The notes below the pieces were generated by a model. That model did not search any database and was not told the DNA's origin. It worked only from the letters and a program-made list of their open reading frames with translations. This document shows positions 3,238 through 7,210 of a DNA stretch of 64,000 nucleotides, piece after piece. Made by a program: the position numbers and the translations under genes. The number at the start of each line of letters is the position of its first letter. The first letter of the stretch is position 1. Source of the DNA: Pontiella agarivorans (GTDB taxonomy: Bacteria > Verrucomicrobiota > Kiritimatiellia > Kiritimatiellales > Pontiellaceae); assembly GCF_034531395.1 (NCBI RefSeq), contig NZ_JARVCO010000012.1, forward strand, positions 930,001-994,000, in the 5' to 3' direction.

Positions 3238-4146
3238 ATGAAAACCGAATCTGCATCCCGTCGCGCATTTGTCAAAACCACCGCCGCCGGTACGGTCGTG
3301 GCGGCCGCATCCGGTGCGCATGCTGTTTCTCCGGATAAAGTAGAGGTCTGGATCCTGCATGGTAAAGACAATCGTAAGCTCATGGAAAAAGCCATGGGGA
3401 TTGTCGTTGAAAACGGCGGTTTTGGACCCCATGTAGAAACTCTGGCGCTGAAGGTGAATGCCGCCTGGGGACGGGAGCCGGAGGTCGGGGCCAACACCCA
3501 TCCGGAACTCATCGATGTTTTTCTGAAAAACGCGAAAGCAGGCGGCGTTAAAAAAATTACGATTCCGGAGCATCCCTGCAGTGCGGCTAAAATCGCCTTC
3601 GATCGGAGCGGCATTGAAAAGGTTGCGAAAAAACATAAGTGCAGGATGATCGACCTGAAGAAGAAGCAGAAGAGCTTCCGCAAAGTTGAGATACCCGGGG
3701 GGCGTAAGCTCAAGGAAGCCGAGGTGGCGGGTGAATATCTGGATGCCGATGCTGTTGTGAATATGCCCGTGGCCAAGCACCACAGCGGAGCCACGGTTTC
3801 CGCCGCTATGAAAAACTGGATGGGGATTGTGAAGGATCGCCGTCATTGGCACCGTACGGATCTGCATCAGTGCATTGCGGATTTTTCCACATTTATCAAA
3901 CCGGCCTGGACCATCGTCGATGCTACACGCGTGATGATGGATCATGGCCCGCAGGGACCAGCCGAAAATCTTAAGATGCCTCATCTGCTGATTCTTTCAA
4001 AGGATCAGGTCGCCGCCGATGCCTGCGTGATGGATATCTTTGAGCGGGATCCGATGGATATCAAATACCTGAAGTATGCCGGGGAGATGGGAATTGGGGT
4101 TGTTGATAAAAGCTTAATGAATATTCACAACATAGAAGTTGGCTGA
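3238..4146 (+). CDS. DUF362-family protein with Tat-type signal
   Basis: 302 residues. The N-terminus has a twin-arginine signal (SRRAFVK followed by an Ala-rich hydrophobic stretch), so export of a folded cofactor-bearing protein is likely. The body matches the DUF362 family, with conserved VNMPVAKHH and AAMKNWMGIVKDRRHWH stretches rich in His and Trp. DUF362 proteins often accompany iron-sulfur or ferredoxin modules; their reaction is not established. The stop codon overlaps the start of the next gene (TGATG at 4144-4148), so the two are translationally coupled and probably act together. Confidence 0.85.
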   Translation: MKTESASRRAFVKTTAAGTVVAAASGAHAVSPDKVEVWILHGKDNRKLMEKAMGIVVENGGFGPHVETLALKVNAAWGREPEVGANTHPELIDVFLKNAKAGGVKKITIPEHPCSAAKIAFDRSGIEKVAKKHKCRMIDLKKKQKSFRKVEIPGGRKLKEAEVAGEYLDADAVVNMPVAKHHSGATVSAAMKNWMGIVKDRRHWHRTDLHQCIADFSTFIKPAWTIVDATRVMMDHGPQGPAENLKMPHLLILSKDQVAADACVMDIFERDPMDIKYLKYAGEMGIGVVDKSLMNIHNIEVG

Positions 4147-5408
4147 TGATGAGTGGAGACGGGTTCTATAAAAAACATAAGCAGGCGATTCGCTGGTCGG
4201 TTCGTTTGTTTATTCTCGGGCTTAGCATCTTTTTTCTGATCGGCGGACCGTTGCCGGAGCATGCCGTACGCTGGGTTCCCGCATTAAGTCCACTCGCGGC
4301 ATTGTCGTCCACATTGGCGCATCAGGTATGGTATGTCTCGCTCGTCTGGACACTTCCGGCCCTTGGAATTCTTTTGCTCAGCCTGTTGAAAGGACGCTTC
4401 TTCTGTCGATGGATCTGTCCATTAGGCACCATTTATTCCATTCCATCGCAGTTCAGTGCAAAAAAAAGAATTCTGCCATGGAAGCTGAACGGATACCTCT
4501 TCTGGTTTACGATTTCGGCGTCGGTGGCCGGGCTGCCTTTGATTCTGTTTCTTGACCCGCTTTCGACTTTCACCCGGTTCGGAGTACTCGGACAGGGGAC
4601 TGCGCATGCCATGGCATGGATTCCCGGAGCGCTGATACCTGTTTTCTTACTGCTGAGTTTTGTTCAACCTCACATTTGGTGCATGCAGCTCTGTCCGCTG
4701 GGATACATGGTTGAGAAGCTTAAGGTGAAAACGCCGCAGACTGATAGATCGATAAAATCCAGCCGTCGTGAAATTTTAACCGGTTTGGCGCTGGGGGTTC
4801 CGACAGCCATGGTCTTAAAACAGAATGCCAGGGCTGTACAGCCTCCGGTATTGCCGCCCGGCGCCAAAACGCTGGATGATTTTGCGGCAACCTGCATGCG
4901 TTGTTACGCCTGTGTGAAAGCCTGTCCAACCGGTGTGTTGACAGTGCGGAAAGAGGGGGGGCTGGCAGAGCTCTGTCTGCCCGAAATGGACTTTGATCGA
5001 ATGGATGGGTCATATTGTGAGCAGTACTGTAATATCTGCACTACAGTTTGCCCCACTGGAGCCATACAGTTTTTAAGCGAAGAAAATAAACAGATGCGTA
5101 GAATTGCAACCGCCCGTATACGCCGGGGAGCCTGTCTGGCTTGGGAAGACCGACAGGAGTGTATGGCCTGCGATGAATTCTGCAGTTATAACGCCATTGA
5201 AATGCACGATGGTAAAGATGGAATCCCTTTGCCGGAAATCAATCCGCTGAAATGCAGGGGCTGCGGGGCCTGCAGGAATATCTGCCCGGCCGTCAAAAAA
5301 GGGAATGCCATCGAAATAACGCCATTATCAGAGCAGACGGTGGTTACGACTCAAGATGAAGAATCGGCTGTTGAGCACGGTCGCCGCAGACGTCGCTGGG
5401 CGCTCTAA
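4146..5408 (+). CDS. NapH-like membrane polyferredoxin (4Fe-4S)
   Basis: 420 residues. The N-terminal half has about four membrane segments and two CxxxCP motifs of the NapH/NosR type (FCRWICPLG and WCMQLCPLG). The C-terminal half carries ferredoxin-type clusters: CMRCYACVKACP, YCNICTTVCP and CRGCGACRNICP, plus extra Cys in ECMACDEFC. This architecture transfers electrons between a membrane quinone or redox pool and a periplasmic or cytoplasmic partner. The gene overlaps the DUF362 gene by one base, and the exported DUF362 protein is the obvious partner. The physiological acceptor is unknown. Confidence 0.88.
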   Translation: MMSGDGFYKKHKQAIRWSVRLFILGLSIFFLIGGPLPEHAVRWVPALSPLAALSSTLAHQVWYVSLVWTLPALGILLLSLLKGRFFCRWICPLGTIYSIPSQFSAKKRILPWKLNGYLFWFTISASVAGLPLILFLDPLSTFTRFGVLGQGTAHAMAWIPGALIPVFLLLSFVQPHIWCMQLCPLGYMVEKLKVKTPQTDRSIKSSRREILTGLALGVPTAMVLKQNARAVQPPVLPPGAKTLDDFAATCMRCYACVKACPTGVLTVRKEGGLAELCLPEMDFDRMDGSYCEQYCNICTTVCPTGAIQFLSEENKQMRRIATARIRRGACLAWEDRQECMACDEFCSYNAIEMHDGKDGIPLPEINPLKCRGCGACRNICPAVKKGNAIEITPLSEQTVVTTQDEESAVEHGRRRRRWAL

Positions 5409-5432: not shown

Positions 5433-5456
5433 TTTCACACATTGCAATGTATGAAG
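5433..5456. repeat. Long palindrome, copy A (near-perfect)
   Basis: 24-bp palindrome with core ACATTGCAATGT flanked by TTTCAC and ATGAAG. Two positions break the symmetry that copy B shows in full. It lies in the 148-bp gap between two convergent genes. Confidence 0.85.
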
Positions 5457-5492
5457 TTTATATATGGCCCTTATTTAATGACTGGTTGTATT

Positions 5493-5516
5493 TTTCATAC
5501 ATTGCAATGTATGAAA
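5493..5516. repeat. Long palindrome, copy B (perfect)
   Basis: Perfect 24-bp palindrome, the 12-bp half-site TTTCATACATTG followed by its exact reverse complement. Its centre is exactly 60 bp from the centre of copy A. It looks like a paired protein-binding site; a hairpin without a T-run makes a poor terminator. Confidence 0.9.
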
Positions 5517-5556: not shown

Positions 5557-7161
5557 TTAGTTTCGGTAGCGGTTGACGATCGGGATGCGCCGATCGCGAT
5601 CGAATGATTTCGGAGTAATTTTTACGCCGGGCGGTGATTGGCGGCGTTTATATTCGCTGAGTTCGACGGCATGTACTACACGGCGGACAATGGTCTCGTC
5701 GTAGCCCTTTTCAATTAGGGATGAAATGCCCATATCGTTTTCCACATAATCTTCGAGGATTGGATCGAGTTCTTCGTATGGAGGCAGAGAATCGGAATCT
5801 TTCTGGTCGGGCCGCAATTCAGCTGAAGGGGGCCGTTCGATGATGCCCGGTGGGATAACGATGCCGCCGGTCTGTTCATTGCGCCATCGACAGAGCTCAA
5901 AGACGAGGGTTTTGGGTACATCTTTAATGACGGCAAATCCGCCGGCCATATCGCCGTAGATGGTACAATAGCCCATGGCCATTTCACTCTTGTTTCCAGT
6001 AGTCAGTACGAGCCAGCCATATTCGTTGGAGAGCGCCATGATGAGGTTTCCACGAATACGGGCCTGCAGGTTTTCCTCGGCCAGTCCAGGAGTTTTGTCC
6101 TTTCCCCATATTTTTGACAGTTCGCCTTTAAACTCATTATAAAGGCCTTTGATGGGGATTTCGTGAAATTCGATATCGAGGATCTTTGCCATTTCGTGGG
6201 CATCGCCCAGCGTTCCCGAAGAGGAATACTGGGAGGGCATGGTAACGGAGGCGACGCGGTCTTTACCCAGAGCATCGACGGCAATGGCGAGAACCAGTGC
6301 GGAGTCAATGCCGCCGGACAGGGCGACGACGACACGTTTGAAGCCGATTTTATTTACATAATCGCGCAGGCCAAGCTTGAGGGCTTCGTACACTTCCTCC
6401 AGGTCCGGAAGAGGTTTTTCTTTGCGGGAGGGAGATTCTTCGAAATAGAGAATATCCTCTTCGAACTGTTTTGCGCGGGCAATGCGGGATCCGTCGGGAG
6501 CAAAAACCATGCTGGCACCGTCGAAGACGAGCTCATCCTGTCCGCCGATCAGATTGCAGTAGAGCAGGGTGCTTTTAAGTTTCTTCGCGGTTTCTGCGAG
6601 TACATTGATTCGGTCATTCAGCAGTTTTCCGCGGTGATAGGGCGAGGCGGAAAGATTAATGAGCAGGTCAATGTTCCTGTTTTCCAGCGATTGGACGGCT
6701 TTTCCGGAAGGGGCCCAGGAATCCTCGCAAATATGGACGGCGGCTTTTTTCCCGTGAATGTCGAGAATCAGAGGCTGGGAGCCGGCTTCAAACAGTCGTT
6801 TTTCATCGAAAACGCCATAATTCGGGAGCAGCATTTTCCGGTATTCCCCGATGATTTCCGAACCTTGGAAAACCAGTGCGGCGTTGTATTTTTTCCCTTC
6901 TCGGGAAATGGGCGTTCCGACAACGATGACGGGCTCGGACGGAAATTCCTTTCCGAGCCGGGTCAGGAGGGCTTCACAATCGCCACAGAAGTGATCTTTC
7001 AGAATCAGATCTTCGGGCGGATATCCGGACAGGGCGAGCTCGGGAAAAACGATCAGTCCGGCTCCAGCGTTGAAGGCTTCCCATGCTTTGGAAATGATAC
7101 GGTCGGCATTATTTGCCAGTGCGCCGACCGTCGGATTCATTTGAATCAGTGCTGTTTTCAT
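5557..7161 (-). CDS. nadE: Glutamine-dependent NAD+ synthetase
   Basis: 534 residues in two domains. Residues 1-~260 are a nitrilase-fold amidase that frees ammonia from glutamine, with catalytic Glu41 (PELALSGY), Lys109 (YRKMLLPN) and Cys145 (HICEDSW). The C-terminal domain is the ATP-dependent NAD+ synthetase with the PP-loop SGGIDSA. It makes NAD+ from deamido-NAD+. An in-frame ATG 48 bases further upstream exists, but alignment to the family (MKTALIQMNPTVG) favours 7161. It lies 62 bp downstream of guaB on the same strand. A one-mismatch copy of the dispersed palindrome lies at 6856-6870. Confidence 0.95.
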   Translation of the reverse strand: MKTALIQMNPTVGALANNADRIISKAWEAFNAGAGLIVFPELALSGYPPEDLILKDHFCGDCEALLTRLGKEFPSEPVIVVGTPISREGKKYNAALVFQGSEIIGEYRKMLLPNYGVFDEKRLFEAGSQPLILDIHGKKAAVHICEDSWAPSGKAVQSLENRNIDLLINLSASPYHRGKLLNDRINVLAETAKKLKSTLLYCNLIGGQDELVFDGASMVFAPDGSRIARAKQFEEDILYFEESPSRKEKPLPDLEEVYEALKLGLRDYVNKIGFKRVVVALSGGIDSALVLAIAVDALGKDRVASVTMPSQYSSSGTLGDAHEMAKILDIEFHEIPIKGLYNEFKGELSKIWGKDKTPGLAEENLQARIRGNLIMALSNEYGWLVLTTGNKSEMAMGYCTIYGDMAGGFAVIKDVPKTLVFELCRWRNEQTGGIVIPPGIIERPPSAELRPDQKDSDSLPPYEELDPILEDYVENDMGISSLIEKGYDETIVRRVVHAVELSEYKRRQSPPGVKITPKSFDRDRRIPIVNRYRN

Positions 7162-7183
7162 ATGTGAGCCGTGACGATGGAGC

Positions 7184-7210
7184 CGTGAGGCATGGGAATC
7201 ACACCTCACG
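7184..7210 (-). other. Hairpin between guaB and nadE
   Basis: CGTGAGG (7184-7190) and CCTCACG (7204-7210) form a 7-bp stem with a 13-base loop, overlapping a direct repeat of GAGCCGTGA (7166-7174 and 7180-7188). No T-run follows, so it is a weak terminator or attenuator candidate. Confidence 0.3.

Follow-up and report, generated by a model that had tools for sequence, protein, structure and literature searches.

The Ter macrodomain of E. coli contains 23 matS sites of 13 bp within 800 kb (PMC3330122), and REPINs, which also occur as palindromic doublets, have poorly conserved spacers (PMC3116915). The DNA uptake sequence of the Neisseriaceae exists in species-specific dialects that co-vary with the cognate DNA-binding protein (PMC3630211). 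The palindromes described here look like part of an undescribed site-protein network, unlike ordinary gene switches, and literature searches, which covered open-licence papers, returned no description of such a site-protein system.

The window, i.e. the whole 64,000-nucleotide stretch that was analysed, spans positions 930001–994000 of contig C12 in a 4.44 Mb draft genome (G000, hereafter the own genome). Two 24-bp palindromes, neither of which has a strand, lie in it between the stop codons of two convergent genes, both conserved with the sister species G011: one encoding a membrane 4Fe-4S protein (4146..5408, + strand; Pfam Fer4 families) and the other, nadE, encoding glutamine-dependent NAD synthetase (5557..7209, − strand; Pfam NAD_synthase and CN_hydrolase). 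Copy A (5433..5456; TTTCACACATTGCAATGTATGAAG) belongs to what we call dialect A, with the core ATTGCAAT, and has two mismatches to the perfect form, whereas copy B (5493..5516; TTTCATACATTGCAATGTATGAAA) is a perfect palindrome. They are separated by a strandless, AT-rich spacer of 36 bp (5457..5492; GC 0.28), whose length is conserved and whose sequence is not. The end of the 4Fe-4S protein gene is 24 bp from copy A, and copy B is 40 bp from the end of nadE. The convergent setting, the exact 60-bp distance between the two copies (start to start) and the perfection of only copy B, all reported in the first-pass annotation with the distance taken between centres, were confirmed from the window sequence, and no match to the palindrome, with up to three mismatches allowed, was found in 100 shuffled versions of the window. 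In two relatives, G020 and G009, these convergent neighbours almost abut and the palindrome is missing, so that the pair was either gained in the line leading to the own genome and G011 or lost elsewhere.

The position between convergent gene ends and the good folding of the region as RNA (z-scores of −4.6 and −5.4) could suggest a bidirectional terminator or an RNA-hairpin element, a reading to which we give very little credence. The terminator scan was blank at this site, there is no GC-rich hairpin followed by a T-run, the stem is AT-rich, and the same element is also found in divergent and coding positions. An unseen small RNA, one of the options listed in the first-pass annotation, is not borne out either: a scan of the window against Rfam gave no match above the gathering score, and there is no conserved sequence between the palindromes. 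The suggestion that the pair is a relic of a lost gene is likewise not supported, as the palindromes are constrained and the spacer is not, and the same two genes lie nearly gapless in G020 and G009.

A whole-genome search identified 25 dialect-A sites at 15 loci in the own genome. Many unspaced copies had been named beforehand as the mark of a simple repeat; the sites are indeed not unique, but 20 of the 25 form ten spaced pairs, with start-to-start distances of 58 bp (two pairs), 59 bp (five) or 60 bp (three). The core ATTGCAAT is identical in all 25, and an 18-bp core recurs at the 25 places with a single variable position (T or C, plus its mirror). When the spacers of the own genome were compared with one another, no common sequence was found, and copying of whole elements was rejected on that comparison. 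The spacers are nonetheless distinct in composition, with a GC content of 0.27 versus 0.40 in the remainder of the same intergenic regions (eight paired loci; p about 5e-5 against resampled windows). A second palindrome family of the own genome, with the core CTTCGAAG, also forms 60-bp pairs.

All 15 dialect-A loci are found at orthologous places in G011, a relative assembled as one contig, and none is private to the own genome. At the ten paired loci, identity between the two genomes is 83% in the palindromes and 38% in the spacers (shuffled expectation, 32%), while spacer length is held at 33–36 bp. The same-face phasing at six helical turns proposed in the first-pass annotation does not hold, because 60 bp corresponds to 5.7 turns at 10.5 bp per turn and sister pairs range from 57 to 60 bp. 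Pairing can differ between the two genomes, since L026 and L027 are single in the own genome and paired in G011. The central dinucleotide, GC in the own genome, has changed in parallel in G011 to AT (11 sites), TA (nine) or CG (three), so that it is self-complementary in 23 of the 27 sites and not in the other four (p 8e-11 versus a one-in-four expectation, in a test that treats sites as independent). Since the centre has changed and yet stayed self-complementary, whereas a hairpin would leave both of these bases unpaired in its loop, the pattern points to selection on the dyad symmetry of duplex DNA and argues further against a terminator. The G011 sites range from 0.8 to 4.1 Mb, with ori at about 3.3 Mb and ter at about 1.15 Mb (from skew and dnaA), and, as they are spread without clustering at the terminus, a MatP-like terminus role is not supported. 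In the same genome, 12 of the 15 dialect-A loci are on one replichore (about 1.2–3.3 Mb) and three on the other.

In the genus as a whole, the arms TCAYAC and GTRTGA are common and the 8-bp core varies by species and subfamily, giving at least six versions of the site, each of which is dispersed within its own genome. In several genes, a site is present at orthologous codons of two to four species, each with its local version (L121/L102/L135/L245, L226/L231/L027, L118/L225/L043, L227/L232, L119/L230, L233/L240 and L239/L243). The distribution is patchy: the exact-arm site is absent from 11 of the 28 genomes, several relatives being fragmented drafts. Matches outside the genus (Opitutales, Proteobacteria, Caulobacter) are single copies with unrelated surroundings and are probably due to chance. 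In G002, the spacers of the pairs at L122–L134, L252 and L255 contain at their midpoint a further, weak dyad (CC-N-TATATA-N-GG), and the AT content of G002 spacers is phased at about 10–11 bp, which suggests bent DNA. The centre-phased AT pattern is strong in G002, moderate in the own genome and reversed in four others; with a flank control that was not clean, it is only suggestive.

Clustering of the loci revealed a gene that recurs behind the sites and encodes a protein of 177–188 aa with two ArsR-like winged helices (wHTH). At eight loci in five genomes, the start codon of a wHTH gene follows a palindrome of the local dialect at a distance of 8–22 bp. The own genome has two such tandem-wHTH paralogues, preceded by sites with the cores ATTGCAAT (dialect A, L025) and CTTCGAAG (dialect B, L120); G011 has one (L108); G003 has three, with ATTGCAAT (L035), ATCGCGAT (L235) and CTTCACAG (L220); and G028 has one, with CTGCGCAG (L221). 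The G002 gene (L223), preceded by a site of the CTTGTGAG/CTCACAAG dialect, encodes the only single-domain version (91 aa). For TTGCATAA, the most numerous dialect of G002, the loci examined had no cognate gene next to them. In G028 (L221) and G003 (L220), the wHTH gene is bracketed by two palindromes with about 570 bp between them and occupies the same chromosomal position, between PgpA-like and RsmE-like genes.

The dialect-A protein of the own genome (184 aa), encoded elsewhere in that genome behind the same kind of pair, matches the ArsR wHTH models NF033788 (77.1 bits in two stretches; cut-off 55) and PF01022 (52.2 bits; cut-off 22). Its AlphaFold model has two ArsR-like wHTH units joined by helices (mean pLDDT 94.2), and the best single-domain fold matches are ArsR repressors, e.g. 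SqrR and HlyU. The second recognition helix, ISPQALYRHLRKLEARN, is identical in the own and G011 proteins, whereas the first differs in three residues, VASS (own) versus CTSV (G011); the sites of the two genomes differ mainly in the centre. G003 has VASS in helix 1 and GC in the site centre, as in the own genome. In this correlation over three orthologues, helix-1 residues appear to track the site centre. A phage origin of the protein was rejected, with plasmid and phage relatives showing only general partial ArsR matches, as was a defence-type identity, for which PADLOC gave only generic HTH similarity to Csa3/CasR.

Dispersed palindromic doublets with several subfamilies per genome, together with an insertion-like gain at the window locus, where G020 and G009 keep the neighbours and lack the palindrome, are also what would be expected of REPIN- or MITE-like repeats spread by a transposase and then persisting. 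This explanation is quite improbable, as none of the 15 dialect-A loci is private to the own genome, the linked gene encodes a DNA-binding regulator and not a transposase, and there is no palindrome within 1.5 kb of the 35 RAYT-type (Y1_Tnp) genes examined (all five of the own genome and 30 in relatives). The RAYT genes of the own genome have a different repeat. Two RAYT-type Y1 transposase genes (L073 and L074, on contig C10 near 327585 and 1122982) are flanked by the inverted repeat GGTGTCAGTCCTATT..., which represents another, REP-like family. The intragenic sites do not look like clean 24-bp insertions: in the dus gene (L017), the palindrome is found at the same codons in seven species, each with its own, sometimes imperfect, version, and the protein linker at this point measures 12–15 aa with the palindrome versus 11 aa without, a gain of only 1–4 residues that is not expected of such an insertion. 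In G013 dus (L054), a GTAG-type repeat-like insertion is present at the linker codons where relatives have the TCACAC palindrome, so the linker tolerates foreign sequence. The orientation of the doublets is undefined for perfect palindromes; G002 shows both inverted and direct ones. Like the terminator and ter-macrodomain readings, the REP/REPIN reading is not supported.

The main rival to the interpretation given below is an ordinary regulon, in which the palindromes would be operators of a tandem-wHTH repressor or activator controlling the neighbouring genes or unannotated RNAs, with the spacer at the window locus serving as a small-RNA promoter. We consider it rather unlikely. It fits the autoregulatory position beside the protein's own gene, the site that is conserved ahead of a sensor-kinase operon in the own genome, G011, G003 and G002, and the length of the spacer, which is compatible with a core promoter; operators flanking a promoter on both sides are a common arrangement. 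A start codon lies downstream of the site in eight of the 15 loci (L016 being counted as divergent), so some of these may be real operators. However, upstream positions are not enriched among the 15 loci, of which four are clearly convergent, two more probably so (L028 and L029, both with weak gene calls) and one is intragenic; promoter control therefore cannot explain all of them. The other dialects are mostly within coding sequences, at conserved codons. Further, the spacers have no conserved −35/−10 or transcript-like sequence, a promoter scan of the window found nothing at the palindrome site, and the genes beside the dialect-A loci have no obvious common theme.

Since the genes of different paralogues are preceded, at the same position, by palindromes with different cores, and since every dialect also recurs at scattered sites of the genome to which it belongs, the tandem ArsR-like wHTH protein most likely binds the palindromes. 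The site family, its spacing, constraint and orthology, the gene link and the dialect matching are shown by the sequences themselves. Each 24-bp palindrome would be a dyad-symmetric site bound by the protein as a symmetric dimer, and two sites ∼ 59 bp apart over AT-rich, bendable DNA would allow two dimers to cooperate, or to bend or bridge the DNA. Through the pair at its start codon, the protein is likely to repress its own gene, and it would also occupy about 14 other conserved loci, the window locus included. With many loci having no promoter to control, the dispersed sites may have a chromosome-scale role (bridging, nucleoid organization or transcription insulation) rather than switching their neighbours. 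We thus favour, with moderate confidence, a chromosome-wide network of sites of an autoregulated binder over a regulon, and a nucleoid site as the preferred class for the palindromes; the patchy distribution in the genus, odd for a core chromosome organizer, counts against this, as do the loci upstream of start codons, the TTGCATAA loci of G002 with no cognate gene beside them and the lack of terminus clustering in G011. The first-pass annotation, as a whole, is partly supported: the cooperative protein binding that it envisaged at the paired sites is plausible given the conserved spacing, the dyad symmetry and the gene for a cognate DNA-binding protein, and on the same basis its remark that an operator would be odd between gene ends holds.

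More tentatively, and with somewhat less than an even chance, this would be a new chromosome-organizing or genome-marking system of Kiritimatiellota, in which paralogous tandem-wHTH proteins have their own dialects at fixed, conserved loci regardless of gene boundaries, and a protein and all of its sites change in concert from species to species. Such a natural series of matched proteins and sites makes the co-evolution of a protein with its whole site set directly testable and, should the sites work outside promoters, would represent a new mode of chromosome organization or insulation outside the model phyla.

Compared with the known systems, the protein resembles ArsR/SmtB regulators (NF033788, PF01022) in wHTH sequence and fold and in the palindrome just upstream of its own gene. 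It differs in having two wHTH domains per chain (177–188 aa), versus a single-domain homodimer of ∼ 100 aa, and in its sites, which are long, near-invariant palindromes (20–24 bp), paired about 59 bp apart and dispersed over convergent and coding positions, with a separate dialect for each paralogue. As in REPINs and REP-RAYT systems, there are palindromic doublets with subfamilies and a variable spacer; here, however, there is no RAYT link, the loci are constant between sisters, a DNA-binding gene is linked and some copies are intragenic. The system shares with MatP/matS a short motif repeated some two dozen times over the chromosome and a dedicated protein, which here would be the putative binder, whereas its sites are longer, paired and, in G011, not clustered at the terminus, and its wHTH protein is of an unrelated type. 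Finally, species-specific dialects of a repeated word co-vary with a cognate protein as in the DNA uptake sequence, although the copies number in the tens and not in the thousands, the palindromes are longer and a wHTH protein takes the place of the pilin ComP.
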